The notes under the pieces were generated by a model. It was given only the letters and a program-made list of their open reading frames with translations, did not search any database and was not told the origin of the DNA. DNA of 64,000 nt, from positions 1,674,001 to 1,738,000 of the forward strand of contig OZ004586.1 of NCBI GenBank assembly GCA_963924555.1. Direction: 5' to 3'. This document shows positions 4,398 to 63,758 of this stretch, one piece after another (position 1 is the first letter of the stretch; each line of letters starts with the position of its first letter). Made by a program: the position numbers and the translations under genes. This DNA is from Crambe crambe. Taxonomy: Eukaryota > Porifera > Demospongiae > Poecilosclerida > Crambeidae.

Positions 4398-4533
4398 CTG
4401 TGTGTTCCACTAGTTTATTCATTACCTTGACTTGTGGAATTCCACAAATAACGACTTTTACCAAATAAGGCTTATCATTGCAACACACATAAAACAGCCC
4501 TTGAAAAGTTATAGCTTAGTTTAATGGTTAGTC

Positions 4534-19377: not shown

Positions 19378-22300
19378 AAATACAAGGGGAGATGATTATC
19401 TATAGCATGGATAGATAAACCATCAACCAAAATCCACTAATTTATGATAAGCATTGTTGATAACTAGTGCAGCATTGATGTGTGCACACTACAATGCAAA
19501 CCATTAATCTTATAGCATCTGACATTATTGCTTACACAGTGAAGGAAATTTGGGAATTTAGATGTGTGTGCAGATACTCTACTATAAAACACGAGTTTTG
19601 CAGCAACGCATGCTGCTGTTACTATCAAAGTGTCCTTGTGACATGCAAGCCAGTGGCATGCAGTGATGTGTAGTCGGCTACATAATAACAAATAGCAAAT
19701 GAGATTTTAAAGCAGCTGGACACACTGTAAAAATGAAAGTGCGTACTGCACACTGTGTATATAGTGCATTTAAATAGAGATATTTTAACGTGCATAATAA
19801 TTATCACTTCTGTTCTTACTGCAAAAAGCTAAGCTTGAATTTCCTTATATGGTTCTTATAGTAAGTATGTACTGTAATTGTGACTTCAAATGTTAGTTCT
19901 TCATTCTTGTTTGCAAGCTACAAGTGATGTTAAACTCTGTCTCTTCCATGAGGTTGGGGACTTGACAAACGCACTCACTAGTGGCCAATTGAGCAGCTAT
20001 CTCATTTCGAAGCTCCTGCTGGCATCGACACATGTCGGCATTTATCCTGGAGAAAGATAACACTAAAGAAGCAGAAGCCAAGGCACTGACCAACACCAAT
20101 CCTATAACACACAAGACAACCACGATTGGTTTCACTTTCCTTGGTTGAGCATGTTTACTTGAATTATGACTCTTTGCAGTGTTTTCTGGAACGGTACTAT
20201 ACAATTCTGTCTTGTCTTCTGCACTGTTCTTATTGCCAGTGTTGAGAGTAACATACGGTCGCTCTTCGTCTCTGTTGGTCAGCTTCAGGACAGTGTAAGG
20301 GTCCACTTCTGTCTCTTCTTCTGCATTGTTCTTATCTCTAGTGTTGGTAGTATCGTACGGTCGTACTTCATTTCTGTTGGGCAGCTTCAAGTCAGTATAA
20401 GGCTGCACTTCCTCAGTTTGATAAATCTCATTGACAACATCATAGTCACATTCAGGCTCCATTGCAGCGAACTAGTATAACTATAGATTATGTTCAAGAT
20501 TACCAAAATTCAGTAGAGCCTGGCTGGATTCACACTCAATAGCATAAACCAGACCTCATAAATAAGTTGTTGTTATTCTCATTACTATCATAACAGAATT
20601 GTTGACTTTCAGGATTGGCAGACTTCAGAGGACTGAAGGAAGTCAGTGTACGATACAGTAATAATACACTTCAAATGGATTCAGATAAGATTGCAAACTT
20701 TTATTATTGATGCTTTCCAGATTTTCCTATACACAAGTTAGTATACATGGGAGTCTGAGAGTAGGTCCATCAATTAAAGCAGTCGGCATTAACCTTTCCT
20801 GATGCAAATAGCTAAATTAAATACCAAAAGCAACATAATCTGCAATTACCTAAGAGATGGACTTTATGGTTCCTAATTTCAAGGCATTTACATAAATATT
20901 TAATACTGGAGCCTAATTAATAAAGCTGGTGCCAGTGTGGTCTCCAAGTGCCATGAGATGAACTCAATGCATGTCTTTAGTAACTAACTAGTTACACAAG
21001 AAAGTATTTATTTTTTAAAGCATATTGAAAATCCAAAATTATGGACATGTCGTATTGAAAAAATGTACAAAACTGTAAAAGGGGTAGCACAAACAATAAC
21101 TGTTTCACTTGCATTTTAAAAAAAAATGCTAAGCTTCGTTATGAGAGTATATACATCGTACAATAAGAATTTTTGAGTTTGAAGATTGAATAAGCATAAA
21201 TGTAGCATTGACCAGCACGAGTTGCACTGGTATGCATTCAAAAAAAAAAAAAAAAGTCGGATAACTATTATAATCACTTGGACTTATATGATTTGATGTT
21301 CAGTGTTTAAATTTTGATAGCGATGATTCAAGCCCTGGTCTGAGCCACTTGTTGCAAGCTGAGTAGTTGGGAAATCAGAGGGTTGCTGACCAATGGTGGA
21401 CTGCAGTTGGTATGACTCGTGCCAAAAAGCATCGGGTGGTCTCGCGACTGTGTGACAGATGCTACGAGCCCCATAGGGGAGAGAGAAGAACTGCTAAATT
21501 GGATGGGACTGGAGATGTTGGAAGACTTGCTGAGCTCTTCGATGGTAAAGGGTGTCTTTGGTGGAGATGGACTTCGCCTCTTCTGAGCCATACCTCCCTC
21601 GTAGGAGGATGCAGGTGAAGGGGCACCGCTTGAGGTGGTGGAGATGGAAGAGTCTTGTTCAAAAGCAACTGGGCCATCAGACAGCGGAGTGCCAGATTTC
21701 GACTTCTGCCTCTTGTTGCAAAACCATACACGCACCTCCTCGGGGAGGATGTCAAGCTTCTGCGAGATCTCTTCAATGACCTGGCGATTTGGTTTGGGGT
21801 TTTGGCTGAAATATTCATCCAAGGTGGACTTAGTCTGAGAAGAGAAAACAGCCCTCTTCTTGCGCTTGCGGCCAGCCATCATAGGGAGAGTGTTGCCCGA
21901 ATTGGCTAGGGCTGTTTCAGGACTTTCGGCTTCGATAAGCCATTTTTCAAGTATGATTCGGATAGTTGCAGCATTCGATGGACTCAACTGCATTTGCTCA
22001 AACCGACTGATGGTGCTCTGAGCGAAGTTGCTATAACCCTTATCAGCAAGAGACTGTCCAACTGCTCCCTGTGTGAGTCCGAGACGGATCCTCCTTGTCT
22101 TGAAATCCTCAGCAAAGGCTTTGAGCTCAATTTGTTCGGGAGTAAGTTCAGAGTGGGGGATAGAAGCCAGAGTACGTGGCTGAGGCACACCACTCATAGG
22201 CGACATCAAGTTATCTTGAGAGAAAGTCTGTCCAGTTGTAGGTTCAGCCATGACTTTCTTCTCCAATGACATATCCTCGGACGTGATGGAATCAGATCTC

Positions 22301-25300
22301 TTCTCGGTTCGAATTTGAGGATTGGTTGCTGGGAACGTCTTGCTGATCAGTGACTGGATGTCGAGATTGGGAGCTTGGAGTGGATTGGTTAGAAACATTG
22401 AAGGCGTGGCTGCCAATCCTGAAGGTGGAGAAAAAACAGTTAGAACAGGCCCCAAGAGAGGTGTGGTCACACCCGATGGACCTGCCAACTGGTACAAGAG
22501 AGGGGTATGCATGCCTAAGTTTTGTGAGGCGGATGTCAGTCCGACTGTTGATGTCGTACTGGGTGTGCTTTGAATGAGAACTGTCTGTCTGCCGAGGGGA
22601 GAGGAGAGGGGAATACCAGCAGAAGTTGGAACGATGATGGGCTGGCTCATGTTGCTGCTGCTCAATGGCAAAGAGTTGCGCACCCAAAGTGGGCTCTTGT
22701 CGAAAACGCCAGAAACATTAGCAGCAGTAGTTGCAGGAATGGAAGGTGATGGACCATCAAATACATCATCAGCCTTGGACTTTGACCCCTTCAATTCTTT
22801 CATTTTATGAAAGTTCCTCCTCATATCATTAAACGGCATCAAAACAGGCATTTGTTTGCATGTGGCATTGCTTGAAATGTGATCTTCTTCGAAATCTTGC
22901 TGTTCATCGTCTTCTTCATCTTCCACTTCAATGACAGGGGCTTGGGAGCTGGATGGCAGGCAGGGGGTGGGGTTAATGGGTGTGGCTTCATTGCAGCTGA
23001 AAGCAGTAGCAGTAGGAGACATGGGGGTAGCGTTAGCTAGCTGAGAAGTGACAGCTTTTGTAGATTGGGAAGTGGAGGAAAAAGGAGCAAGGCTGTAGAA
23101 AGAATGGGAAAAAAATTTTTTGTTTAAAGTTTGTGATTGTGGTCTCCTCCCCGGCCAACCTGACCCACCACACCCCCTGAGCCAGAAGAAAAACTCTTTT
23201 TTTTTTTTTGCCATACTCTTTAGCGTTTTTATAACCAATCATTCTCTACCAAGTCTTGAATAATATGTCAGCGATTGCAGGAGGACAAATTCAATTGCTA
23301 TGATATTTATAAACGTATTTGTAACGTAGAAGCTCTTCTAGTGTCTGATTAGTGGTTTACATAGTACAGATTATTATCATACTCAACCATGCACACTACT
23401 ATGTAACAAGTACTGCAGCTGCCTATTTTAGTTGTAATATTAACACCCACATAACTTCAATTATATTTTTTCCACTAAAATACTATATGTTAGAGGTCCT
23501 AAACTTACCTGGTATAGGAGTCCTCATAATGAACAGGCTCTGTGCCACTAAAACAAACAAATAAACAAACAAACAAACAAATAAACATTAAATAAATAAA
23601 TAGTCTCTCAATGGAAATCATCATTTATCTATTGGACCATTAAGCTCCCAACTGAGTACCTGTTAGAGTGGGTCTTACTCACCTCTGTCCTATGGCAGAG
23701 ACTTGGTAGGAGCCAAGCAATTCTACGTCTTCCTCGCTTTGACTGGACAATTCTTTCCTCAAGGCTTCTTCAGTCTCCTACAAAAAGACGTACAGAAATC
23801 ACATAAAATCTGCTCATATGAGATCACTTTAAAGTCCAATCTATACTGTGGAACTGCCTTAGATCTGCTACGATAGCTTTCATTCAAAATAGCCCACACC
23901 AATGCTACAGTCAAAAAGAACCCTCTGACATGCAAGCACCTCCTACCCTCTCAAAGGAATTCATGCTACACCGCAACTAATTTTCACCATGGCAACCATC
24001 TCACTTCTGCTGGGAATGCATGTTCACCATAAACCCAGTCAAAGTACGGAAAGTACACATATTACTATGGCAACCATCACTTACTTAGTTGGAATGTGTG
24101 TGCCATAAAGGGAACTCAGGATCTACATAAGTGCACCTGAAACAATAGTGGGACCATACTAGGACGACCTGATCCTGTGGCCCCTAAAACTACAACAGGA
24201 TGGGATGGAAGACAAGGCGATTAGGCCCTTAGCAAATCTACTTAAAGGTGCCGATTAGGCTCTTAGCAAATCTACTTAAAGGTGCCGTGGGAACATGATG
24301 AGAGAGATGAGATTAGGTTCTTTTAAACCCACTCATAATTATAATAAAAACATAAAAGAACGCTGTGAACCAGTGGTGGAAGTAACTGATAGACACTTTG
24401 TCAGTCAAAGAAATCCTTCAAAAATTTATCGGCTGAACTTTTCTCCTCACTCTTTATAACAATTTAGTGCTATTGATAAGATCATTACATGGTTGCCAAG
24501 GTTTCCACTACAGTTCCACTGTAACCGTGGAGATACAAGTGATCACCATGGTCACTAAATGAGTATTGGCCTGTGACGCAAGCAGTGATTGGCGAAATAC
24601 TCCACCAGGACATAATATTGACATTTTTTTAACCCACGTACCAGTCTCGGATTGAAGGACACACATGAAAACGAAAATGAAGGACACAAGCGAGAAACTA
24701 CTCACAATGGACAATCTACACTTGTTTGTTGCTGTTGTTATTATTCTGTGAGGCTAGGACACAGAGATTGTTACACTTGCAGGAAGATGAGGAAGTTATT
24801 CTAAACGTTCTACAACTAACACCAAATTAACAGTCTTGGATGAACCAAGCTATGACGACGCTGCAAAAAAAGGAAGACCTTTTAGAAAGCAATGCCAAAG
24901 GAAGGACACCTCAGGCCATTTAAGTACAAATTTTCAGGTTGTTGGTGAGGAATCACAATTGTACAATATTTTTTTGCCTCGGCACTTCGGTGCCGAGGCG
25001 CAGTGCTGGGATCGACTATGTGTCCGTGGTACGTACGTCGTAATACTAGCACACCACGCGTTCATGTACACCCATGCAATACATTGCATGCATGTGCAAT
25101 TGAAGAATAGGCCATAGATTTGAGCAGAACACGAGACAGCGACAGAAACAGCAGGCTAGAGACGACAGTCTAGGGGAAGAAACAGCAGGCTAGAGACTAG
25201 GTAAAGAATTCATGAACAAGTGAATATTTCAACAAGGTAGGCCTAGTGTGCATGCAGGCAACACTCAACAGGAAAGCCAAGAGTGAGAGAACATCGACTA

Positions 25301-44870: not shown

Positions 44871-47800
44871 ATGACAAACATATGCGAGCTGATTTCATAC
44901 AGACAGCAATCAGTGAGTCAGTCATTGGAGTCAGTAGTTGGTAACTTACTGAGCTCTATTTACTAAGGGTAGGTCATAAGATCACGTTTAATTAGTGGGG
45001 TTATCTACTTACTTTCTCATACACAAGGAGGGTTTATTATTGTCATTGAGCTCCAGTTGATGTTGAGTGCTGGGCTGTCTCGTACAGTCATGTGATCAGA
45101 CAGTGTGTGGGACAGACATCAGGCTATTTTGACACATTAAACTGGCCCAATTTGCATACATACACACATACATACATACATAGAATCCTCAATTGTTCCT
45201 TGATTCTCATTCACTAGTTTCATGTTTCCATTGACAAGTGTTCATGTCAGTGAGTAAAGACAAGTAGTATTCATACGAGCAGTACATATATATACACATG
45301 TGTATGGTACTGTGCCATCATGGTTGAGTAATATGTTGTAACCTTGTATAACAAATATGCAACTCTTATAACACTTGGTAGTGACAGTCTATTAGATACC
45401 TACCTCCATCATTTAACCAAATTTCCAAAAAAAAAATCAGCAATAAAACAAACAAAACCAGTGGATGATCAGCTCTCTGCTGGTGTTTTAAAAGGTCAAG
45501 AATTAGAGAGTTAGAGCAGCAAATTATCAAGGGGACACAACTAGATGATCATCCTCCCATTCCAATACTAGCATGTCCAGTTCCTAATTTACATTCTAGA
45601 AATCAGCCTTTGTTAGTGCCACCGGTTGCATTCTGCATTCTTCCTGTACTTTAGACTTTGGACTCTCTGCAAAGGAGGTTATTCCAGCATCTTCATAGCC
45701 ATGATTCCTTGGTAGAGAAGCTGGGTTACTCTTGTGAGCTACAGGTGAGACATTTTGAACTACGGTACAACTACATCTGAAATTGAATTCTTAATTTTCA
45801 TTTCCTCCTCCCCTCAGGGCCACAAGGGCTGTGTTAACTGCCTCCAATGGAGTGATAGTGGAAAGTGAGTATACGACACACACACAGGACAGAAATTTGG
45901 GTTGATTCCTACATGTGACTGTCAGTCAATTTTGCAAAACCATAAAAAAAATTTTCCCACAATAATTATGACCTTTTGATAGCCATTGTCTATTCAGGCA
46001 TGTTTATTTGAACCCATTGGTGGTCTCTGTACTTATATAAACAGAGTTTCCATGAGTTGATCTATCTGCTCAGAGGTCATCTTTTTCCTTAGTCTTCTAG
46101 TGTCTGGTTCAGACGACATGACGGCCATTTTGTGGAATCCTTTTCAGAGGAAAGCAGAAGCTACTATGCCCACTGGACACACTGGAAACATATTCTCTGT
46201 TAAGGTCTGTACCTCAAGATTGTGTATCTGTGAAATTAATCAACTGTTGTTGTTGTCAGTTTCTTCCTTTTACTGGTGACAATCTGCTGATTACTGGATC
46301 CGAGGATGGGGAAGTTCGTTTGCATGACCTCACCACATTTGATACCACCCAGGTATGTCATTTGGTAATGGTCATCAAAACCATTTGGTAATGGTCATCA
46401 AATCCATTTGGGTAATGGTATGGTGATATGGTTAGGCCTGAGCTAATTATTCGGGAATAATTTTTTGAATAATAGGTAGCTTCTTTCAGAAATTGCTCTA
46501 ACTGAGACATCTTTGATGCTTCAGCATATGTACGTAAACTACTGTATATTCTATTTAATCCCCACCTAGGTGTGGCGTTGTAGTCAGGGACGTATCAAAC
46601 GTGTGGCCACGTGTCCCAACTCTCCGTACCTATGCTGGTCTGCTTCAGAGGATGGGTGCGTCCGCAGATTGGACACAAGGGAACCCCACACCTGCGATGG
46701 AGATGGAACTTGCCGAAACGTCTTGATTGACATAAAACTAAGTACAAAATCAGGCCTAGCCATGTCTCCACAGTGTAAATGCATCGACATCAACCCAGTA
46801 CGTACTGAACTAATAGCCATCGGTGCCCTTGACACTTATGCTAGGATATATGATGCTCGTCTTTGTACCCTGAGGTCACCAGGAAGAAGCTCTTCGAGTG
46901 AGAGCGATCCCAGCTGTGTGACTATGTTCTCTCCTGGTCACATTACAAGTTCAATAGTTGCTAATCGAGGGAGGAAACCGTCTTGTAGCACTGTTGCGTC
47001 GACTTATATCACGTTTAGTCCAGATGGTAGAGAACTCCTAGTGAATCTCTCAGGTGAACAGATCTATCTCTACGACATCATGGAGCACCAAGTTCCCCTC
47101 AGTTACGAATTTGATAAGTCTAATTCCAGTTTTATACCTAGACTCAGACCCATTCTACAAACCTATAGAAAACATTTGAGTGGTGTAGCTGGAATCAGAA
47201 CGAAATTGATGCCGTTTGTATCTGAACCGCATTCCATTCCAAAAAGGTCTGTGGAGGAGACGGAAGTGAGTAGTAAAGTGTTGAAATTGAGGGACAAGGG
47301 AAAAGAGTTTTATAAACAGGAAAAATTCAATGAAGCTCTGCGATCGTTAAACTCGGCAGTCGATCTTTGTCCTAATTGGCACATTCTGTATTTTTTGAGA
47401 GGAACGACACTTTATTCTCGCAAATGGTGAGTCAGTTCTCCTGTCACTTAGTTGAAAAGAGCTAATTAAAATTTTGTAGTTTAGTTTCAATCATAGTGTT
47501 TATTCTCTTCATGACAACCTTGGGTGACTACAATGCTTGCATTTTCATCCCACAAAATGCTCTCTGAGTTCATTCCACAATTATTTTTCTTATCATACAG
47601 GACTGGTGATATATATGCTGCCCTGAGGGATATTGAGACCTCCCTCTCTCTCTCCCCCTCCCATAAGTTGTCCCAGCAGCGTCGGATTCAGTGTCTGATG
47701 GACCTGGACATGCATGAAGAAGCCAACAGGTTCCTACATCAATACCAGCTCGATCATCCCAGCGACTCCAAGTTTACCAACAGGACAAAAAAAGAGCTGG

Positions 47801-48718
47801 AAAAATCCAAGAGTATCAAAGATGGCCGTGTACAAGGTAAACTTAATGTAAAAGTAGCTTTTTTGAAAGAGTTCCTTCCCTCATAGTTGATGCCACACCC
47901 CTTCTGTGGCTTGCGTAAATAAGGTCACGCCCCTATTATATAGTATTTTATAAAGCAGCCACACCCCCTCCAGTCTTATAAGACAGCCACACCCCTTCTG
48001 CAGATCAATTGAATAGCTTAGGGTGAATTGTAATGTGGCTATATACTTAATCCTCCTCCCCCTCCCCCTCTCCCCTCCCCCCTCCCCAGCATCCAATGGG
48101 AGCAGTAGTTATCATGGCAATGGCCGAACAAACCACCATCTCCTTTCCCATCAGCAGCCAGTCTTTGACTACAAAAAACGATACTGTGGCCACTGTAACA
48201 CGCACACAGACATCAAGGAGGCTGTCTTTATTGGTGATCGTGGAAACTACATAGCTGCTGGCAGCGACGATGGAAATATCTTTATATGGGAAAAATCTAC
48301 CGGGAATTTGGTGCGTGTTTTAAATGGTGATACTTCAATTGTGAATTGTATCCAGTGGCATCCGACCACAGCCCTAATGGCTACCAGTGGAATAGAGAAT
48401 GTGGTGAGATTATGGGAACCAAACTGTGGTGGTAAGGAATCAGAATCTAGGGTTAAATTGGACCTTATCAAGATCAGTAAGGACAACCAGCATAGAATGG
48501 GAGTGGACCCTTTTGAGGTGATGCTGATGAGGATGGGTTTCAGACTAGCCATGGCCGAAGAGGGAGAGATTCATTATGAACCACATGAGGGTGATGATGA
48601 AGGAGCTGGAGGTGGGGCAAATGCTGGTGGTGGTGGTGGCAGTGGCGGTGACGATGCTGCAGAGAGTGGGAATGAATTGAGATGGATCCAGAATCCATCC
48701 AATTGTCGTCAAAGTTAG
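44871..48718 (+). CDS. WDTC1: WDTC1 / Adipose-like WD40-TPR protein, eight exons
   Basis: Exons: 44871-44912, 45655-45744, 45818-45864, 46093-46204, 46260-46352, 46570-47426, 47601-47836, 48090-48718; phases close to 701 residues. Exon 1 (14 codons) is short but fits the family start (NI..LI). WD40 repeats follow (GHKGCVNCLQWSDSGN-LLVSGSDD, GHTGNIFSVKFLPF, WSASEDGCVRRLD, VTFSP-like ITFSPDGRELLVNLSGEQ). A TPR pair lies about 330-440 (GKEFYKQEKFNEALRSLNSA). A C-terminal WD40 part reads RYCGHCNTHTDIKEA and GSDDGNIFIWEK, and ends near DPFEVMLMRMGFR. In other animals WDTC1 is a CUL4-DDB1 substrate receptor linked to fat metabolism. A Gly/Asp-rich tail is specific to this copy. Confidence 0.92.
48044..48088 (+). 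repeat. C/T array at a WDTC1 3' splice site
   Basis: CCTCCCCCTCCCC-type tract ending CCCCAG at the exon starting at 48,090. It is the plus-strand counterpart of the purine arrays beside minus-strand exons. Confidence 0.9.
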
Positions 48719-49144: not shown

Positions 49145-52100
49145 TCAAACTATAATATTATGCTCTTCAATAGGTGACAAATTATCCTCAGTGTGTGTGG
49201 TATAACCACTAGAGGGTTTTATAGAAGATAAAGATATCTGAGTCCTTTGACTGAATGCTGAACCATATCTGTCAGGTAACCGGAATTGTAACCCCGAATC
49301 ACCCTCTTTACTCTGGTCTTTATTTTCTACGATTATCAGATGTTTCTTTGGACGGTGCAATCGATCACGTCTAGGTTTATCGTGTCTGTAGAACATGTAG
49401 CTGCAGAAGGCCGACATGACAGCAGCAATAGACACTATGCAAATTAGAATAGCTATAGCTATGAGTACATTAGTTCTTATGTTTATACCACCACTGTTTC
49501 TTTCTGGTTCAATTCCTACAGTAAGAAAATAAGAAGGAAAGATCCTACTGAGTACATACGTAATTATAAGTTGTATACACCTATAGAATACATTTTCCCT
49601 CATTAGCTAGTTCATGCAATTAATCCCTAATTGCACTCCTACCTATTATACTGCACATGTGCTAGTGGATTGTTAGTCTAGTAGGCCACCCCGTTTGCAT
49701 GGCACTTCTTATCCAGATCAGAATCCACATGTAAATACCTCAACCCACATCTAGATGTGGCTAATTCACTTTGACTGTTTACATGTGAAGTGGATTTGTA
49801 TCTCTGGACAAGTGGTGCTATGCTGTGTAAATGGGGCTTAGCTAAGTGCTTCCTCTTTGTGGCAAGCATTATTTACATGCAGCTGCCTGGTTGATACAGG
49901 CTGCAATAGTTAATAGGCAAATCACATGCTTTTTCATGCAATTTGGGTATAATTACATTCAAAATGGTCTAAAATAGCACTCAGCTTTGCCTCATGAATT
50001 AGCTACCTAGCCATGCAATAACCCAAATTGCACTCATGAGCATGTGATTAGCTAGCTAGCTACATTACACAGCATACGTAATATTATCCATTAGAATTCA
50101 AGCTGAGCAGTTTATGAAAATACAAAAAAGTGACCAAAGATATTGGAGTAGCTAAAAAGTACTAGTTGCTGGAGAGCCCAATTTGAACTTTGACCACTTG
50201 GGGAGGCATCGAAATTCAAGGAGGGAGGACCTAAGGAATTAAATTACCATGGCCCTACTTACCAAATATATAGGTATTCAACGCCAGTGGATTGCTCTCT
50301 CCTTCACAGTTCACTGTTATCAGAGTAACTGAGTATTGCACATTGAATTCCACAGTCACATTCCAAGAGGTAGCATACACTATGATAGGGTTTGGATGTG
50401 AGAGAGGTTCTGGAGTGATTACTATCTTATAGTAGTGGATAATGGCCTCTGGACCGCTACCATGAGGTGGATCCCATCCTAATGTAATGATATTTGAAGC
50501 AGCAGTGTAGCTTTCCTTGACTTCAAAATTGGTGGCTGATAGTGGTGCTAGAAAAAGAAGAAATAAGTAGCTACTAGCCATGGCTATGGTATCCAAGTAA
50601 TTCTATACAGTAGTGCAGACAGTATCAAGACTATTTAGAGAGGGCTACATACCTGATGTATTGACAGTGAGGCTCATTGCACTACTTGCTAGGTTTGGGG
50701 CAATGCTACACATCACTATTGTATCGCCACCCATTGAAGCATTTCTGCTCAGTGTGAATACCATCTCAGATGCTATCGTGTTCTGGTATGTGTAGTTAGT
50801 CAATACTGTACTGACTCCAATATCATTATGACGGATCACTTTATGAAGAACAGATGTTTCATTATATGTGATATTAATGGGCATGAGTCCAGAGAAGTGG
50901 ATACTCCATGTTAGATGTAGGTTCTCACTGTTTGATTCTATTAAGCAGCGGTAGACTACAGTGTCTCCTGGGCAGTCAATATCATCAAATGTTTTATTTC
51001 GTTCAATAAGCCTTAGTTTTGCAGAAGCTGAAAATTAACAAATAAATAAACAAACAAACAAACAGACAGACAGACAGACAGACAAACAAACAACAAACAA
51101 ACAAACAAACAAACAAACAAACAAACAAACAAACAAACAAACAAACAAACAAATCTGAATGGTGATAAATAACATACCCCTGACCAGTGTGCAGTTATGT
51201 TCATGTGGTTTTGGTTTCCATACTCCGGATCCTATACCATTGCTGCTATTCATACAGGTTGCATTCATCACAGCTGATGGAGTATAGCCTTGGTCACACT
51301 GAAAGTTGACAGTGGCTCCTATTCCACTACTACCAGAGTAGTTGCTCAAGCTGCCACTGACAGGAGGTGCAGGAATACCACAATTAATAACTAGGAATAT
51401 ATAAATTATTATGATTAGTAGCATTAGCATGTAAGCAAACTTGGGTTACATATGATACTGCTTACTGTATTCAATATTGAAGGGGGGACTCTTTCCAGCA
51501 CAATTCTCTGCAGTGATGATAGCTACATATCTCCTATTATAAAGAAGAGTCACATTCCATGGTGGAGAGTTGATAGAATTCAATCCAGGGTGAGAGAGTG
51601 GATTAGGTGATATTGAGATGCTGTAGCGATCTACAATGGCCTCTGGACCAGTGCCTGATGGGGAATCCCAATCAAATGTGACTGTGATATTAGATGATTG
51701 TGAATAATACTCTTTAATGATGGAAAATCCAGTAGGAGAAAGAGGAACTGTTAAAGATAAAACATCATTAATTAAGTCATTAGGTCATATTTATGGCCAC
51801 CTTATGGGCCAGGAATAGAGGTTTTTCAGGAAGATGTGGTCTGATATGTTCACTTTATATAGTAGAGTGTTAGCTAAATCATTTTATTGTATACCTGACA
51901 TATTGACTAAAACATCAACTACTGCATTATCAAGGTCAGAGGAACTACACTGCAGTTCAGTTCCATTAATATGAACATTCTCCGACATATTAAAGAAAAT
52001 GAGAGACTCAATGTACTCATCTTCCCTGAATTTCATCAAAGTTGTGCTGATATGAATATCCAAGTAATCTCGCCTATTGAGCAAGGAGTTGCTATTGTAT

Positions 52101-55100
52101 GTGATGCTAATCGGTGTCATTACTTCATCAGGCAATGTGATTTTCCAGGTCAGCTCTACAGTTTCACTATTGGATTCTATGCTGCAATTGAATGATATGA
52201 TGTCTCCAGGGCAGTTAATATCTGATCGTTGCGTTTTTTGGTCATGAATCGTTAAATCCACATCAGCCACAAGAGCTGAATGATAATAATAATTATTTTA
52301 AGTTATGAAAATTATATATATTAAGTACCTGTGCAGTTATGTTTCGCTGGTGCAGGATACCACCTCCCTTCTTTAGTGCAATTTCCTCTCATATTGTGTG
52401 AAGGACGAAATTCTCTACTGCAATTGAAGATGACAAAATCACCGATTTTAGTCCCAGAATAGTTCAGTATGTGTCCGTCCATGGGGGCAGCTGGGGCATA
52501 GCAGTCAACTGCATGAAAGACAATGCCTCTATAGTGCAAAGAACCCAGGCTTTTTTTTGGGGGGGGGGGGGGGGCGGAGGGATGGAAAAGAGAGCCTGGT
52601 ATCCAATTTTGGGTACATATGTAGGGCCCAAGAAACAACCAATCTATTTGGTATGGCCTTAATACTGTAGAAACTCAAGGTTGACTCACTAAATTTGATG
52701 CCATGTAATGTAAACGGATGACTATCTCCAGCACAGTTAACAGCAGTAATGCTTGCTGAATACTCCAAATTGAAATAGAGGGTGACATTCCAAGATGTAG
52801 AGTATGATATGGTATTGAAAGCAGGATGGGATATGGGTCTAGGAGTAATTGAAATTTTGTAGCTGTTGACAATGGCTTCTGGACCACTACCCTGTGGTGG
52901 GTCCCACTGGAAAGTGACAACAGTGTCAAGAGAGCTGTCATATTGCATTGAAGTATTGAAGCCTGTTGGCATGAGTGGCACTGAAATTTTGAAAGAGAAA
53001 TAGCTACGTAGAAGGATTTTATAATAGTAGTTATATGCATACACTGAAGATGACTCGAGGCTTGAATGGAAAAGCCTCATGGTTAATTGCATTCAATAGC
53101 TAGCTAAAGTAACATCCTAGGACTTACCTGATGTATTAACTAGTAGATGCATCATACTAACATAATCAGGACCGGTGCTACATGTTAGCTCTGTTCCATT
53201 CATTGTGACATTCTTCAGCAATGTTAATGTGATTTGAGACTCGATGTACTCATCTAATCTAAACTCAGTCAATATACTACTGATATTGAAATCCAATTTT
53301 CCCATGTGTCTGAGGGTAGAAGTGGCAGTATAGGTGATATTGAAAGGTTCAAGTCCAGGAAGATTAATACTCCATGTTAAATGCAAACTTTCACTGTTTG
53401 ACAGTATACTGCAATTGTAAATAATTGTGTCCCCAGAACAATCAATATCAGGAGAGATCTCATTCTGTTCAAGCAAGCTTAAAGTGATGGAGGCTATTAT
53501 TATGAGAGAAAATAATAATTGATGTCACTTTGTTCAAGCTGACAGAAGAGAAAAATTGATAATTGATTTAATGGACCCCCCTCCCCCCACTCGCCCTTTT
53601 TGGTTCTTTCTTTATGTACCATAATATAAAAAGCCTACTTGCAGTTAAGATCAAAGTACCACACTACTGCTCTCTATATGCCATACAGCAGACTTGTTGT
53701 TTACAGGAGGCTGAGCCAACAAGGGAGGAGTGAGGTACTACCTAGGATGTGACTAGGGCAATATCAGGAAGCCGATACATTTCCATTGTAGGCTTTAAAA
53801 ACAGTTAAACCATGCCTCACCCTTGTGCTGTACAGGCCTTTGCCCTCAGGCATCAGGCAATATATCCTGTACAACAGGGTCCCACATTGCTGCACATGCC
53901 ATCATCAAGTACTTTCTTAAAAAATTGTATACCTTTAATAAATGTACAGTTGTGTTCACTTGGTGCTGGATTCCATCTTGTGTCTGATCCACAAGTACCA
54001 ACCACTTCAGCAGATGGTCGAAAACCTTCATCACATTTAAAGGTAACTAATAATTTGGTACCAGAATAATTTACGATACTTCCATTGATAGGAGGAATAG
54101 GGATACCACAGTTCACTGTTGTACAAGAATGATCGTGATAATTACTGATTATATAATATTATTATTACACTCACAAAATTTGATGTTCTGTAGTGTCAAA
54201 GGCTCACTTACTCCAGCACAATTTTGAGCAGTTATAGTTGCATTATATTCCACATTATAGTTCAGTGTCACATTCAATGATAAGGTATTGAGCACACTTG
54301 AAATTGGATGAGATAATGATCTTGGCATTATTGTTACTTCATAAGTATCTACAACAACTGCAGGACCACTGCCTTGTGGTGGGTCCCATTGAAAAGTGAC
54401 AGTGACATTCGAAACTCCATGAAATTTACTTGTAATATTGAAGTTGATTGGAGAAAAAGGAACTAATAAATCACAAGGTATATCACAATCTTACATTACT
54501 TTGTAGCTAAAGTACAGCTATTCTTGTTTGTCTGTTTATAAACCTAAGTACAATCATGCACTTTACCTGATGTATTAACAAGCACAAATGTGGTATCGTT
54601 ATCAAGACTTGGGGAAACACTACATTCCAGTAGTGTTCCATTCATCGTAACATTTTTTAGCAATGTGAACTTTATTACAGATTCAATGTATTGATCAGGT
54701 ATATAGCGTAATAGAGTAGCACTGACATTCAAACCCAAATAATCCATGGCATTGATCAAAGAACTGTTGTCATATGTGATATTAATCGGTGCAAGTCCAG
54801 GAAAAGCAATGTGCCATGTAAGATGAACCATCTCGCTGTTGGATAGTACACTACAATTGTAGGTTATGGTATCTCCCGGACAGTCTATGAGGGTCGACAT
54901 TTCATTTCTCTCCAAAAGAAGTAAACTGACATTTGCTATGACTGTATAATTATGAATTCAAAGTCCTGTTAGATTAACTATTTTACATATCTGGCCACCT
55001 ACCTTTAATAAGTGTACAATTATGCTTTTCTGGTGCTGGATTCCATCTTGTGTCTGATCCACAAGTACCAATCACCTCAGCAGAGGGTCGAAAACCATCA

Positions 55101-58100
55101 CCACATTTAAAGGTAACGATATTTCCTAGTTTCGTATCAGAATAATTTACGATACTTCCGTTGATAGGAGGAATAGGGATACCACAGTCCACTGTTGTAT
55201 AAGAATGATCATGATATTACTGATTATATATTATTACACTCACAAAATTTGATGATCTGTAGTGTCAAAGGCTCACTTACTCCAGCACAATTCTCAGCAG
55301 TTATACTGGCTGTGTACTCCAGATTAAAGTTCAGTGTCACATTTAATGATAAGGTATTGAGCACATTTAAAATTGGATGAGATAATGATCTTGGCATTAT
55401 TATTACTTCGTAAGTATCTACAACAACTGCAGGACCACTGCCTTGTGGTGGGTCCCATTGAAAAGTGACAGTGACATTCGAAACTCCATGAAATTTACTT
55501 GTAATATTGAAGTTGATTGGAGAAAAAGGAACTAATAAATCACAAGGTATATCACAATCTTACATTACTTTGTAGCTAAAGTACAGCTATTCTTGTTTGT
55601 CTGTTTATAAACCTATAAGTACAATCATGCACTTTACCTGATGTATTAACAAGCACAAATGTAGTATCGTTATCAAGACTTGGGGAAACACTACATTCCA
55701 GTAGTGTTCCATTCATTGTAACATTTTTTAGCAATGTGAACTTTATTACAGATTCAATGTATTGATCAGGTATATAGCGTAATAGAGTAGCACTGACGTT
55801 CAAACCCAAATAATCCACGACATTAATCAAAGAACTGTTGTCATATGTGATAGTAATTGGTGCAAGTCCAGGAAAAGTAATGTGCCATGTAAGATGAACC
55901 ATCTCACTGTTGGATAGTACACTACAATTGTAAGTTATGGTATCTCCCGGACAGTTAATGAGGGTCGACATTTCATTTCTCTCCAAAAGAAGTAAACTGA
56001 CATTTGCTATGAGTGTATAACACGAATTATGAATTCAAAGTCCTATTAAATTAACTATTTTACATATCTGGCCACCTACCTTTAATAAGTGTACAATTAT
56101 GCTTTTCTGGTGCTGGATTCCATCTTGTGTCTGATCCACAAGTACCAATCACCTCAGCAGAGGGTCGAAAACCATCACCACATTTAAAGGTAACGATATT
56201 TCCTAGTTTCGTATCAGAATAGTTTACGATACTTCCGTTGATAGGAGGAATAGGGATACCACAGTCCACTGTTGTATAAGAATGATCATGATATTACTGA
56301 TTATATATTATTACACTCACAAAATTTGATGATCTGTAGTGTCAAAGGCTCACTTACTCCAGCACAATTCTCAGCAGTTATACTGGCTGTGTACTCCAGA
56401 TTAAAGTTCAGTGTCACATTTAATGATAAGGTATTGAGCACATTTAAAATTGGATGAGATAATGATCTTGGCATTATTATTACTTCGTAAGTATCTACAA
56501 CAACTGCAGGACCACTGCCTTGTGGTGGGTCCCATTGAAAAGTGACAGTGACATTCGAAACTCCATGAAATTTACTTGTAATATTGAAGTTGATTGGAGA
56601 AAAAGGAACTAATAAATCACAAGGTATATCACAATCTTACATTACTTTGTAGCTAAAGTACAGCTATTCTTGTTTGTCTGTTTATAAACCTATAAGTACA
56701 ATCATGCACTTTACCTGATGTATTAACAAGCACAAATGTAGTATCGTTATCAAGACTTGGGGAAACACTACATTCCAGTAGTGTTCCATTCATTGTAACA
56801 TTTTTTAGCAATGTGAACTTTATTACAGATTCAATGTATTGATCAGGTATATAGCGTAATAGAGTAGCACTGACGTTCAAACCCAAATAATCCACGACAT
56901 TAATCAAAGAACTGTTGTCATATGTGATAGTAATCGGTGCAAGTCCAGGAAAAGTAATGTGCCATGTAAGATGAACCATCTCACTGTTGGATAGTACACT
57001 ACAATTGTAAGTTATGGTATCTCCCGGACAGTTTATGAGGGTCGACATTTCATTTCTCTCCAAAAGAAGTAAACTGACATTTGCTATGAGTGTATAACAC
57101 GAATTATGAATTCAAAGTCCTGTTAAATTAACTATTTTACATATCTGGCCACCTACCTTTAATAAGTGTACAATTATGCTTTTCTGGTGCTGGATTCCAT
57201 CTTGTGTCTGATCCACAAGTACCAATCACCTCAGCAGAGGGTCGAAAACCATCACCACATTTAAAGGTAACGATATTTCCTAGTTTCGTATCAGAATAGT
57301 TTACGATACTTCCGTTGATAGGAGGAATAGGGATACCACAGTCCACTGTTGTATAAGAATGATCATGATATTACTGATTATATATTATTACACTCACAAA
57401 ATTTGATGTTCTGTAGTGTCAAAGGCTCACTTACTCCAGCACAATTCTCAGCAGTTATACTGGCTGTGTACTCCAGATTAAAGTTCAGTGTCACATTTAA
57501 TGATAAGGTATTGAGCACATTTAAAATTGGATGAGATAATGATCTTGGCATTATTATTACTTCGTAAGTATCTACAACAACTGCAGGACCACTGCCTTGT
57601 GGTGGGTCCCATTGAAAAGTGACAGTGACATTCGAAACTCCATGAAATTTACTTGTAATATTGAAGTTGATTGGAGAAAAAGGAACTAATAAATCACAAG
57701 GTATATCACAATCTTACATTACTTTGTAGCTAAAGTACAGCTATTCCCAGTTTGTCTGTTTATAAACCTAAGTACAATCATGCACTTTACCTGATGTATT
57801 AACAAATACAAATGTGGTATCGTTATCAAGACTTGGGGAAACACTACATTCCAGTAGTGTTCCATTCATTGTAACATTTTTTAGCAATGTGAACTTTATT
57901 ACAGATTCAATGTATTGATCAGCTATATATCGTAATAGAGTAGCACTGACGTTCAAACCCAAATAATCCATGGCATTAATCAAAGAACTGCTGTCATATG
58001 TGATATTTATCGGTGCAAGTCCAGGAAAAGTAATGTGCCATGTAAGATGAACCATCTCACTGTTGGATAGTACACTACAATTGTAGGTTATGGTATCTCC

Positions 58101-59419
58101 TGGACAGTCTATGAGGGTCGACAATTCATTTCTCTCCAAAAGTAGTAAACTGATATTTGCTATAATTATTAAAAAAATCCTCACTGCTAATATTATAAAC
58201 CAGGGTGCTATAATACCTTTAATCAAATTACAATTTGGAACTGGTAGCCAACTTGAATCCATGCTACATGTACCAAGCATCTCATTGGAAGGACGAAACC
58301 CATCATTACACTTATAGATGACATAGTCTCCCACTTTAGTACCAGAGTATCTCACTATATTGCCATTAGTAGGTGGTAAAGGGATTCCACAATCAACTGT
58401 ATTCAATGCTCAAATTAGTGCATGACAAATTTTAGTGGTATATTAATCTACACTCACGAAATATGATATTATGGAGTGAATATGGGCTCCCAAATCCAGC
58501 GCAGTTTATTGAAATGATAGTGGCATTATATATCACATTGAATTCAAGTGTTACATTCCAAATTAAAGCTGTGATAATATTCGAAGTAGGATGAGAGAGG
58601 GGGGCAGGCGTGATTATTATCTTATAGCCATCCACAATGACCTCTGGGCCATAGCCTTGAGGAGGACTCCATTTGAATGTTACAGTGACATTTGATACAG
58701 TGTGGTATTCCTTTATGATGTCGAAGTGGGAGGGCTGATTAGGCACTATGATAGGTAGCAATAAAGAAATAACCAACACAAAATAAATTTTAGCCTATTC
58801 ACATAGCTTACCTGATGTATTGATAAATACTGTTACCATGTCACTACCAAGGCTCTCAATACTACATTCCAACTTAGTTCCATTCAGACTAAAACGTTTT
58901 GGTATTGTGATAACACTGGTTGACTCTATATAGCTGTCAGTGAAGTTATTCAGGTACACACTGGTGTTCATAATCAGTGGGCTTGGAGTGTTAAGCACTG
59001 AGTTGCTGTCGTATGTGATGTTCACTGGCATGGAGCCAGGGAGAGTGGCATGCCACATTAGGTGAATGTATTCGCTGTTAGACTGGATGTTACAATTATA
59101 TGATAGAGTATCTCCTGGACAGACGATATCAGATTGGCTTGTGTTTCTACTCAAAAGAGTTAGCGTTACAATTCCTAAGATTCATAGTATAGCTATTATT
59201 GTTATGCTAACTTAATTATTATTCTGTACCTTTAACCAATGTACAATTGTGTTCTTGAGGTGCTGGACTCCATTGTCCTTCCAGTGTGCAAGTTCCATTC
59301 ATTTCCATTGAGGGACGAAATCCCTCATCACATTTGTAGGTCACATTATCACCCACTTTTGTACCAGAAAAACTCGCCACGCTACCATTAGTGGGAGGGA
59401 CTGGTGCATAGCAGTTAAC
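49145..59419 (-). CDS. Modular surface receptor: eight CCP-Ig-FN3 modules, TM, cytoplasmic tail
   Basis: Each domain is one exon and all are phase 1. In transcript order (CCP, Ig, FN3): 59229-59419, 58811-59174, 58456-58745; 58220-58397, 57791-58160, 57397-57685; 57157-57345, 56715-57083, 56321-56608; 56080-56268, 55638-56006, 55244-55531; 55003-55191, 54567-54935, 54175-54462; 53933-54115, 53128-53493, 52690-52980; 52329-52508, 51895-52275, 51466-51747; 51178-51390, 50653-51027, 50263-50547; then TM/tail 49145-49515. CCPs show CGIPxPPxNGSI and a C-terminal HNCT. Ig exons show CPGDTITYNCS and GTxLEC. FN3 exons show WDPPQGSGPEA. The membrane helix is about VLIAIAILICIVSIAAVMSA. The tail is basic then Ser/Thr/Tyr-rich (YGSAF, SGYTTH) with no kinase domain or clear ITIM. 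Many N-glycosylation sites. No signal-peptide exon was found directly upstream; the N-terminus may lie in the 60-64 kb region. An adhesion or recognition receptor is inferred. Confidence 0.85.
49516..50262 (-). other. Receptor intron; no further feature
   Basis: A+T-rich intron between the last FN3 exon and the TM exon. Contains short GCTAGCTAGC repeats; no coding signal. Confidence 0.5.
51033..51152. repeat. (AAAC)n/(GACA)n array at a receptor 3' splice site
   Basis: About 28 four-base units. In the transcript (GTTT)n and (TGTC)n end in TTTTCAG at the Ig exon starting at 51,027. Confidence 0.95.
55003..58160 (-). repeat. Tandem 1,077-bp module repeat within the receptor gene
   Basis: CCP exons at 55,003, 56,080 and 57,157 are exactly 1,077 bases apart, and introns repeat with the exons. 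The two full copies differ at only a few positions, many in introns. The third copy diverges from about 57,720 on. An older, more diverged copy lies at 53,930-54,935. Copies are clean multiples of a CCP-Ig-FN3 module, so each added copy keeps the frame. Confidence 0.95.
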
Positions 59420-59689: not shown

Positions 59690-59960
59690 AACTATAATAT
59701 GGCACAATTTAGGCTCTCTGGTGGTGGATTCCATCTGTACATGTGGTTACCATCACAGCATTATACTGGAAGGTCACATTGGTTCCCTCATCAGCAGTAC
59801 TTTAAAGCTACCCAGGCTCCCATTTATAGGGCCACAGCCAACTATAACCGGAATGTATCTTTTAAAAAAGACAAATAGAATCAAGTTGGTTTCTTTCTCA
59901 CATCAAATTATTCACTCACTGAATTCCATAGCTGGTAGGGCTTTGACGGTCTACTATCGA
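59690..59960 (-). repeat. Fragment duplicated from 61,815-62,125
   Basis: Contains the CCP-exon 3' part, following intron and start of an FN3 exon of the neighbouring copy, with deletions. Not coding. The plus-strand open frame across it is an artefact. Confidence 0.75.
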
Positions 59961-60239
59961 TATTGTGCCCCTCAATATTTTTGCACCCCCTGCAGTGGCA
60001 GATCCAACTATAAACAAAAAATGTTCACCACCCAAGGTGCATGCTATTTTAGTAGGTAGATGCTTTGATTGCATATTTTTTCACTTCCATGCTTGGCACT
60101 CGCTGAGGGTCTGGTCCCCCTCCCCACCTCAAAATTCTAGATCCACCCCTGCCCTGGGCTAATGCCCCCCCAACTTATAATTCCCAGTAGACCTATTTTC
60201 TGGTCCATATTGAGTAGTCCACTCAATAGCTAATGGCTG

Positions 60240-60625
60240 TGGCTAGATATACCTGTTATTTCCAATCAAAAGTTTGTGGTAGCATCAGCAGGAAGGGATG
60301 GCCTGGACACAACTGCTTTGTAGTATCCATTATCATACACCTCAATTATTAAACGAGTAAATTATCCTCAGTGTGTGGAATTGTAACCCTGAATCACCCT
60401 CTTTACTCTGGTCTTTATTTTCTACGATTGTTATCAGATGTTTCTTCTGATGGTGCAATCGATCACGTCTAGGTTTATCGTGTCTGTAGAACATGTAGCA
60501 TGCAGAAGGCCGGCACGACAGCAGCAATAGACACTATGCAAATTAGAATAGCTATAGCTATGAGTACATTTATTCTTATGCTTATACCACCACTGTTTTT
60601 TTCTGGTTCAATTCCTACAGTAAGA
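60240..60625 (-). pseudogene. Broken second TM/cytoplasmic exon fused to an Ig fragment
   Basis: Matches the intact TM/tail exon (49,145-49,515) closely. An extra base after TTCTGC breaks the frame just past the helix, and most of the Ser/Tyr-rich tail is deleted. Downstream in the transcript it joins a piece like the Ig exon at 63,468-63,590 (VYDNGYY region). This shows a whole receptor copy once ended here. Confidence 0.85.
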
Positions 60626-60859
60626 AGGAAAGATCCTACTGAGTACATATATAATTATAAGTTGTACCTTATGTGAGCAGTATTATATCTGGTCCAGATA
60701 CATAGCTAGAGTTGTGGGCACAGGATGCAGTGGGCAGGCTTCTTGTTGAGTCTGCCAACTTGCTTTGTGGGCATACCAGTAAGAGATACATGTGTGCCCA
60801 TATAACTTTTGCTCACTAGAGTATCTCCTGGAGATAGTAGATATCAGATCAGGTACTCG

Positions 60860-63127
60860 AAAGAGTTAGCGTTATGATTCCTAAGGTTCACAGTATAACA
60901 ATCATTGTTACCTAACTTTAACCAATTGTGTTCTTGAGGTGCTGGACTCCATTTTCCTTCAATTCCATTCATCTCCATTGAGGGATGAAATCTCTCTTCG
61001 TATTTGATGGTCATTATCACCCACTTTTGTACCATCACGCTACCATTAGTGGGAGGGACTGGTGAATAGCACAGGATCACTCACTCCAGCACAGTTAATT
61101 GTAATTGTATATTCCACATTGAAACTCAGAGTAACATTCAGAGTGATGAAATTGCCTTTGATAGGCATACCAGAGAGTGGTGGTGGCAAGATGTATGACA
61201 TATACCTGTCCACAATAATTTGTGCACAACTTACCTGTGGTGGACTCCACTGCAATGTGATAGCTAGTGGTATACTCAATGCTTCATCATGCCGACCAGT
61301 AGTTTCAAAACCAGTTGGTGGAAGAGGAACTATAAAAAGGTAATTATATTTGTGATGGTCTCGGCTAGTTACAGTAGCTTAATAAAAATATGCTATTAAA
61401 GTATTCTAGCTGTCACTTACCAGATGAGTTCACTAAAGTTATCGTGCTATTTCCCGTGTTCAGTACCACTTGACCTCATCTTCCAGCACTTTGACATTAT
61501 AAATGATAGCTCATTTCCAGGATACAGGATAATATAACTGTCCATATCAGGTTATGAATCATCTTGTGATGCTAAATATATGAGAATGTATCTCCAGGGC
61601 AGCGCTAGTCTATATCAAATCTGCTTGTATTCTGCTCATAATGAATGGAGCCACGACAAAGCATGGTGTAGCTAAAGCTAGCTAGATTGTGTGAGCATTA
61701 GCGTAAATGCGCAATATTGGCATCCACTTGTGCTGCAAGCAAGATTTCATGAACAAAAATCTGCACGTGTTTGCGTGATGATCTGCATGTTTGTGGGAAT
61801 AGAAAATACCTGCAACTATGGCACAGTTTAGATTCTCTGGTGGTGGATTCCATCTTCTCTCATCTGTACATGTGGTTACCATCACAGCAGAAGGAACTAA
61901 CTCAGCATGCATTACACTGGAAGGTCATATTGGTTCCCTCAGCGGTACTTTGATAGCTACCCAGGCTCCCATTCATAGGGGGGGATGGATGACCACAGCC
62001 AACTAAAAGAATACGAAACCATACAATACAGAATGTATCTTTTTTTTTTAAATAAATAGAATCAAGTTGCATGGTTTCTTTCTCACATCAATATATTCAC
62101 TCACTGAATTCCATAGCTGGCAAGGAAGTTGGTACACTCTCACCAGCACAATTTACAGCAAAGATTGAGACATTATACTGCACATTGTGAGCAAAAGTTA
62201 TATTAAAAGGAGAAGGGTGATATCTCATAATTCTACTGAAACCCATCATAGGTGCTGGTGTGACAGTGATCAAGTAGCTGTCTATAACTCTCTCTGTATT
62301 GATCCCACGTGGCTGGTCCCAATGAAAAGTTAGAGTAGTCTCTAGTACCATGCTATATTCTTGTATAGTGGTGAAATTCAGTGGAGCATTGGGAGCTGAA
62401 AAAAAAGTAAACATGCAAGGTCAAATAAATTGCATGCAACTAACTTTATAACAGCCTACCAGATGTGTTGACTGCAATTTTCTCCTGATCACTCTCATAT
62501 CCAGCAAGATTGCACTCCAGCAAAGTCCCATTCACAATGGCGTCTCCCAAAACTGTCAACTTGATAACAGACTCTATGTATCCACTGGCTCTGAATTTGG
62601 TCAAAGTAGCACTGACGTTCATGCCAAGATCATTGACAGTATTACGAATAGAGTGGGCATCGTAAGTGAATGTTATAGAGGAGTTCCCAGGGAAGGTGAC
62701 AACCCATGTTAGTTGTAAATAGACAGCATTTGACACTATGCTGCAGTTGTATAATATAGTATCCCCGGGACATTCAATATCAGATCGAGAGTTGTTTCGC
62801 TGAATAAAATCTAAGCTCAAAGAAACTAAAAAATTATATAATTATTGTGGACTTCTGAACTTATGGAATGCCTGTACCTCTAAGTTCAATACACAGAGTG
62901 CTTGGATCTGGTTCCCATCCATAACTGAAGTTCTTGTAATTGCATATGATATCTATTGGACTGATTGGAGTGTATCCAGCGCTACACTGGATAGCCACAG
63001 TAGAATTTGTTGTGGTATTCACAATATTTTCAATGGCAGATGCGTTTCTAAGCAATGAGAGTGGGCTTTGACAGTCCACTATTAATATTGATGCATAGTA
63101 AATACAGATAATCTATATAATAATAGG

Positions 63128-63226
<99 letters not shown>

Positions 63227-63758
63227 CTACCCAACTACCTAGGTACAGAGCCTATGCAAATGTGGGGGTATTAGGGTTACATGCCCCACCCCCCCCCCCC
63301 CCCCCCCCCACAACTTTTAATCCCAGTAGTTAGTGCAGCCCCTCTTATTGGCTGTGCCCTCCAATGGAAAGTGCATTCCTACGTACATCTACAGGAGGTA
63401 TAAGGGCTTGAGAGGAAAAGTTCCATTTCCTCCTGGTCCATGTAGAGAGGTTCTAGGCTAGATATACCTGTTATTTCCAATCGAAAGCCTGTGGTAGCAT
63501 TAGCAGGAAGGGATGACCTGGACACTACTGCTTTGTAGTATCCATTATCATACACCTCTAAATTTTGAATGATTAAACGAGTGTTACCCTCCAGAAATGT
63601 AAAGTTTTCTCCTGACGTGATCCTATTGCCCCTGTGATCATACCACTGAATCTCATCAGGAGTCACAGGAGGATTTCCAGCAGTGTATACTTTGAGTGAT
63701 ACATTTCCACCTTCTGGACCAAGAAAATGTGGTCTTTCTGGTTGAACTGCTAAGGGAC
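60860..63758 (-). CDS. Second receptor copy, partial and partly decayed
   Basis: Transcript order: Ig-like exon 63468-63758, CCP 62870-63079, Ig 62456-62826, FN3 62105-62395, all open. Then a CCP at 61,810-62,003 with a frame change near 61,905, an Ig remnant at 61,420-61,660 without an open frame, an FN3 at about 61,085-61,330 (open), and a CCP at 60,900-61,075 with several indels. The first Ig-like domain lacks both core cysteines (NVSLKV and DNGYYKAVV where Cys is usual). Either this is a dying paralogue, or its first four good exons splice past the damaged ones to exon 59,229-59,419 and provide the N-terminus of the intact receptor. The sequence alone cannot decide. Signal peptide not in the window. 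Confidence 0.65.
63131..63224. repeat. (AG)n microsatellite
   Basis: About 46 AG units, about 50 bases upstream (in the transcript) of the acceptor of CCP exon 62,870-63,079. A poly-C run lies at 63,290-63,309. Confidence 0.95.

Follow-up and report, generated by a model that had tools for sequence, protein, structure and literature searches.

The receptor gene in the window (the whole 64,000-nucleotide stretch of Crambe crambe DNA that was analyzed) probably belongs to a family of large surface receptors that span the membrane once, vary in module number, and act in recognition or adhesion. In protein order, it would comprise a signal peptide, five N-terminal Ig-type domains, nine CCP-Ig-FN3 units, one transmembrane (TM) helix, and a short tail. 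This architecture was established in full for the window gene and in part for the other genes. Since each domain corresponds to one phase-1 exon, units can be added, removed, or spliced over in frame.

Exon structure of the receptor gene

An exon pass over the window found 24 of 24 domain exons open on the minus strand from 59418 to 50263, in strict CCP-Ig-FN3 order over eight modules. Each of them is bordered by AG and GT, is in phase 1 at either end, and has a length of 3n; joined to the TM exon, they yielded 2379 amino acids with a sole, terminal stop. This layout of 24 symmetric phase-1 exons in eight triplets, followed by a TM/tail exon, had been described in an earlier note on this DNA and was borne out. 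With one domain per exon, phase 1 at both ends, and 3n lengths, the gene is of the exon-shuffled class 1-1. The extent given in the earlier note, 49145 to 59419, was one base off at the start of the array (59418), but the gene itself is larger and extends past these coordinates, with the exons of the signal peptide, of five Ig-type domains, and of a ninth module at 66010-62105. The exons are as follows.

66010-65962, minus strand, signal peptide exon (outside the window, numbering continued)
65850-65506, minus strand, N-terminal Ig-type exon IgA (outside the window, numbering continued)
65427-65155, minus strand, N-terminal Ig-type exon IgB (outside the window, numbering continued)
64988-64701, minus strand, N-terminal Ig-type exon IgC (outside the window, numbering continued)
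64627-64310, minus strand, N-terminal Ig-type exon IgD (outside the window, numbering continued)
63468-63758, minus strand, fifth N-terminal Ig-type exon IgE; phase-1 borders, open frame, related exons in the main C5 cluster
62105-63078, minus strand, module 0: CCP0 63078-62878, Ig0 62825-62460, FN30 62395-62105
58458-59418, minus strand, module 1: CCP 59418-59230, Ig 59174-58812, FN3 58745-58458
57398-58396, minus strand, module 2: CCP 58396-58217, Ig 58159-57791, FN3 57685-57398
56321-57345, minus strand, module 3: CCP 57345-57157, Ig 57083-56715, FN3 56608-56321
55244-56268, minus strand, module 4: CCP 56268-56080, Ig 56006-55638, FN3 55531-55244
54175-55191, minus strand, module 5: CCP 55191-55003, Ig 54935-54567, FN3 54462-54175
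52690-54115, minus strand, module 6: CCP 54115-53933, Ig 53493-53128, FN3 52980-52690
51466-52508, minus strand, module 7: CCP 52508-52329, Ig 52275-51895, FN3 51747-51466
50263-51390, minus strand, module 8: CCP 51390-51178, Ig 51027-50653, FN3 50547-50263
49145-49515, minus strand, last coding exon (TM/tail): short juxtamembrane stretch, one transmembrane helix, short tail, stop

The full gene model has 34 exons, and their in-frame joining yielded 3187 amino acids with one stop and 130 N-glycosylation sequons. Counting module 0, the window gene has nine modules. The helix in the TM/tail exon is VLIAIAILICIVSIAAVMS, with a mean hydropathy of 3.0, and together with the signal peptide this one helix indicates a single-pass surface protein. 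A Pfam scan of the tail listed no signaling domain.

The neighbors of the receptor gene in the window are ordinary genes.

4525-6654, plus strand, RING/B-box/filamin/NHL gene (TRIM-NHL type)
8167-10083, minus strand, TCP-1/cpn60-domain piece, which we take to be PIKfyve-like
21328-23238, minus strand, POU-homeodomain gene
46570-48718, plus strand, WD40/TPR pieces, ending beside the 3' end of the receptor gene

Domain identity and folds

The Pfam CCP scan covered modules 0, 1, 2, 7, and 8. PF00084 (Sushi) scored 58.9 and 43.9 bits, against a cutoff of 20.7, in two stretches (module 1 plus the CCP and Ig of module 2, and module 7 through module 8 to the TM exon). CCP0 was weak (E = 0.055, 14.3 bits), below the same cutoff. 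The N-terminal 504 amino acids gave 74.3 bits for Pfam Ig_3, a match that is spread over three stretches and does not confirm the five exons singly. The module "Ig" domain had no Pfam Ig match and is predicted by the structure model to be a V-like Ig fold; the module FN3 scored under the Pfam cutoff, and the model predicts an FN3 fold for it. The window protein is a CCP (Sushi) protein, a fibronectin type III protein, and a member of the immunoglobulin superfamily, and these domains support the suggestion of the earlier note that it is a surface protein of the recognition or adhesion type. The Pfam-scanned stretches listed neither an SRCR domain nor the Calx-beta repeats of the sponge aggregation factor, and every coding exon of the model was assigned to a domain type other than SRCR or to the signal peptide or TM exon. 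On this basis the protein fits neither the sponge SRCR receptor family nor the aggregation factors.

Paralogous arrays in the genome

A genome search in which part of the candidates was scored matched the module sequences to C5 and C16. Modules were mapped by running profiles built from the window exons on fetched genome stretches, which gave the following arrays.

Array V, C5, 20 modules, one CCP ahead of the array
Array P, C5, 10 modules, two extra CCPs after it
Array B, C5, 10 modules
Array U, C5, 8 modules
Array c, C5, 3 modules, one CCP ahead of the array

With the window gene, arrays of 3, 8, 9, 10, 10, and 20 modules are present in one genome. Within five genome stretches, 205 of 223 domain hits had a phase-1 acceptor and donor no more than 8 codons from the expected place. 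Hits were taken at an E value of 1e-3 or lower, weaker ones being dropped, and the test was lenient in that one relic FN3 and one relic CCP also passed. Placement among the 205 was exact to the codon for 194 acceptors and 184 donors. All hits of the main C5 cluster (132/132) and of a second C5 locus (30/30) passed; of the 18 misses, 12 belong to a decayed locus on C16, 4 to another decayed stretch close to C5:7.475 Mb, and 2 to the window's own relic.

A TM exon was predicted after arrays V, U, P, B, and c and after the decayed C16 array, alongside weaker candidates. Paralogues sharing the TM/tail exon had been envisaged in the earlier note; arrays with other module numbers were found, but the exon is shared with the relic copy only. 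Whole-genome matches to it were itself and that copy (3 rows), and the genome search detected no similarity between it and the TM/tail exons of the paralogues. By eye, the family has four other tail types, short and differing among genes. Relatives of the window gene's N-terminal Ig exons were found at V, U, and P, in the main C5 cluster, and at a group of small units; none were found at arrays B and c or at the decayed C16 array. Ig0 and FN30 were nearest to the first modules of P and V in a nearest-neighbor comparison. Signal peptides of the paralogues were represented by weak candidates only.

Several further loci were observed. The four small units lie in tandem within the C5 cluster, at C5:8613900-8625200 (L040, L041), and each consists of relatives of IgD/IgE plus one module Ig and FN3, with no CCP hit and with short, weak TM candidates only. 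The decayed array at C16:4784502-4790304 (L050, L051) shows frame breaks and a single CCP hit in the opposite orientation; its predicted TM exon resembles that of gene U. At C12:6.05-7.09 Mb lay 19 of 72 matches to the N-terminal Ig part, at 36 to 51% identity to its IgD/IgE portion, which are possibly another Ig family related to the head. The Sushi search, with 150 of 413 candidates scored, gave large exon clusters at C14:6.859-6.897 Mb, C15:5.83-5.89 Mb, and C11:1.207-1.263 Mb, and its list did not contain the window's own CCPs. Seven of the C15 Sushi exons had an equal top score, which suggests near-identical tandem copies.

Constraint on residues and proposed function

The dN/dS ratio was estimated on close pairs (0.02 < dS < 0.4), which are not independent of one another. 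Median values were 0.28 for Ig (62 pairs), 0.33 for FN3 (59 pairs), and 0.31 for CCP (65 pairs), and ratios above 1 occurred in 0 of 62, 3 of 59, and 1 of 65 pairs, respectively. Within the Ig domain, the five loop regions and the rest lay between 0.07 and 0.44, except for one five-residue stretch with a ratio of 1.34, which rests on 8 synonymous differences in non-independent pairs. These ratios point to purifying selection on residues, i.e., coding constraint. Diversifying selection at the residue level was unsupported, with medians near 0.3 and no convincing loop-focused diversification. With such ratios and quiet loops, fast change concerns module number and arrangement and not residues; the locus had been called fast-evolving, and this holds for module number and exchange but not for the residues themselves. 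The absence of loop-focused positive selection in the module Ig makes it a poor fit for a classical diversifying immune receptor.

We infer a role for the protein in cell recognition or adhesion, in which the number of modules would be the property that varies. The N-terminal Ig cluster would form a binding head, the 27 module domains would provide a long sequon-rich stalk or a multivalent surface, and the contact could be with microbes or with other cells of the animal. The main rival reading is that of a purely structural product, a long adhesive or anti-adhesive fiber whose module number sets its reach, with no variable recognition and with the Ig/FN3 logic of titin. Purifying selection in all three domain types would suit such a fiber, as would the shortness of the tails, the one that was scanned having no recognized domains. 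According to nearest-neighbor lists, the first and last modules of different genes also still correspond for the most part, expansion being in the middle. Against a mere spacer, the N-terminal Ig cluster common to several genes resembles a head, and the family has diverse tails. We regard the fiber as possible, though on the unlikely side.

A more far-reaching version of the recognition role is that self/non-self or symbiont recognition is written in module number and order instead of hypervariable residues, which we consider very unlikely. If it were true, module count would vary from one individual to another, register or length would decide which receptors match, and module changes would arise by unequal exchange within and between genes. 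The variable receptors for self/non-self and microbe recognition in sponges are poorly defined, and the family offers concrete loci, with arrays of 3 to 20 modules and apparent recent exchange between genes. Should the function prove to be plain adhesion, the family would still be a clear natural case of module turnover in an early-branching animal lineage.

A decayed duplicate between the 5' exons and the module array

The interval between 62105 and 59418 contains the following relic sequences.

60925-62000, minus strand, relic A, with the four pieces below in this order
62000-61814, minus strand, relic A, CCP slot 1, in two pieces
61649-61536, minus strand, relic A, Ig slot 2 fragment
61327-61064, minus strand, relic A, FN3 slot 2
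61071-60925, minus strand, relic A, CCP slot 2, overlapping the FN3 end
60377-60666, minus strand, broken TM/tail exon copy and some adjoining sequence; 91.9% identical to 49575-49282 in an alignment of 298 columns
59695-60361, minus strand, relic B, IgE fragment and slot-1 CCP remnant

The best matches of relic A were P_CCP1, P_Ig2, P_FN32, and W_CCP1/P_CCP2. In the TM/tail copy, the reading is split between frames and a stop lies inside. The IgE fragment of relic B (60361-60241) is 90.2% identical over 122 columns to 63577-63456; the slot-1 CCP remnant lies at 59839-59733 and nearby (P_CCP1, E = 3e-5), and an FN3-end match at 59944-59921 was nonsignificant (E = 0.4). The order is thus paralogue slots 1 and 2, TM, IgE, and slot-1 CCP remnant, which is what a meeting point of two tandem genes would leave. 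These are the decayed remains of a tandem duplicate. The "second copy next door" of the earlier note was not found: the stretch holds the 5' end of the same gene and this decayed duplicate with its broken TM exon, which together rule out a clean second gene copy adjoining the array.

On the simplest reading, the 3' half of a first gene and the 5' half of a second gene would have decayed, with splicing now linking the sound halves. Because exon phases are equal on both sides, the halves can be joined across the relic without frame loss, and FN30 (62105) is presumably spliced to the CCP of module 1 (59418) in one gene. Alternatively, there could be two genes, a truncated upstream one (signal peptide, five Ig domains, and one module) and a downstream array without a 5' end, either a large recent pseudogene or a gene with an unseen start. 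A relic TM exon followed by an IgE fragment is the order expected at an old junction of tandem genes. We nonetheless find two genes unlikely: the 24 downstream exons are all open with splice sites in place, dN/dS is low among modules, and one common phase serves all exons on both sides. Furthermore, apart from IgE, the N-terminal exons had no significant match within the relic, the signal peptide having had no dedicated scan. If the halves are so linked, the relic shows how modules can drop out of a gene and be passed over when its exons share one phase.

Turnover of modules

Modules 3 and 4 of the window gene are 99.7% identical over 1077 bp, introns included; on the same basis, module 5 is 97% and module 2 is 91% identical to both. 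Modules 5 to 16 of gene V had a mean identity of 0.90 at lag 2 (range, 0.83 to 0.95) versus 0.70 at lag 1, which indicates that the 20-module array is built as a higher-order repeat of two modules. In exons, genes P and B are 87 to 96% alike over the eight module pairs compared. Genes P and U have a tract in common, in which P05/U03, P06/U05, and P07/U06 are 96.8 to 99.7% identical in exons and 84 to 100% in introns. U04 is another P06-type module (85 to 96%), giving U one module more in the tract. Beside the tract, identity drops (P08/U07, 65%; P09/U07, 71 to 82%; P04/U02, 73 to 93%). We read the tract as the probable product of a recent exchange between these genes that altered module number; it could also reflect shared descent with replaced flanks.

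Recombination between nearly identical repeats appears to add and remove modules. A unit of about 1.0 to 1.1 kb would be added or removed by unequal exchange between neighbors with the frame kept, and a damaged unit could be bypassed by splicing, again without frame loss. That module number can change in this way had been proposed from the exon layout, and the near-identical module pair, the repeat in V, and the P/U patch with its extra U module agree with it. Modules 3 to 5 or the 20-module array could in principle be assembly artifacts, with a smaller real expansion, as 99.7% over 1077 bp is within the range where assemblers miscount copies. This is highly improbable given the graded identities of modules 2 to 5, the lag-2 divergence within the long array, and a slot order that largely recurs at independent loci.

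Comparison with known systems

A single-sequence protein search gave five matches, namely three fragments, a protein from Halichondria, and a Sushi-domain protein from a pseudoscorpion; P0004 was matched at 6.3e-10. A profile search over the best 7989 candidates by shared words gave 62 matches, and the 16 that were named were all from Halichondria panicea, which points to a sponge, most likely a demosponge, as the source. The profile included P0001, P0002, and P0004, whose own matches are therefore built in, as are in part those of their kin. A weak test with 1429 amino acids of the protein, of which residues 501-1390 were scored, gave no match at an E value of 1e-3 among the best 7995 candidates by shared words. 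According to our own profiles, each of the 16 Halichondria panicea proteins has one FN3, 15 have CCPs, and 9 have a detectable Ig; with 23 to 29% identity to the first query row, they look like single-module relatives. They (P0004, P0006, P0019, and others) are named SVEP1-like, mucin-2-like, or uncharacterized. Like the window family, they combine an Ig-like domain starting C-P-x-D-T-V with one FN3 and CCPs, and three of them, by eye, have an N-terminal signal-like stretch and a transmembrane helix, as does the window protein; unlike it, they have no repeated triplet, and their tails differ. The tail of P0019 (810 amino acids) had a subthreshold Death domain (19.7 versus 22.6 bits) and, by eye, several Y-x-x-hydrophobic motifs, which would make a signaling member possible.

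Literature searches, mostly of papers available without subscription, returned no description of a repeated CCP-Ig-FN3 family. CSMD proteins are single-pass proteins with a short tail and a long strict CUB-CCP alternation; the window protein may be likened to them in its long strict alternation, although the domain types differ. The Geodia multiadhesive protein, going by its title, is said to count among the sponge CCP/FN3 surface proteins. Sponge SRCR receptors and CCP/FN3 surface proteins mix CCP, FN3, or Ig domains, as the window family does, and some are encoded by tandemly clustered genes that differ in their number of domains (PMC10855680, PMC6208332, PMC8242945). In contrast to SRCR receptors, the window protein showed no SRCR in the scanned stretches and keeps a fixed triplet order. 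Genes with Sushi, Ig, or FnIII domains are listed among the sponge responders to microbial patterns in two studies (PMC6208332, PMC8242945).

Extracellular modules that were shuffled in animals usually have the class 1-1 phase layout (PMC8001218). Such proteins, titin and twitchin included, likewise have one domain per symmetric phase-1 exon and mixed Ig/FN3 repeats (PMC8001218). Because this layout is general among animals, the phase pattern alone is unsurprising. Unlike titin and twitchin, the window family has a strict three-type unit that includes CCP, a transmembrane helix, and module turnover with relics. What is notable is that a strict three-type unit is repeated up to 20 times with visible turnover.
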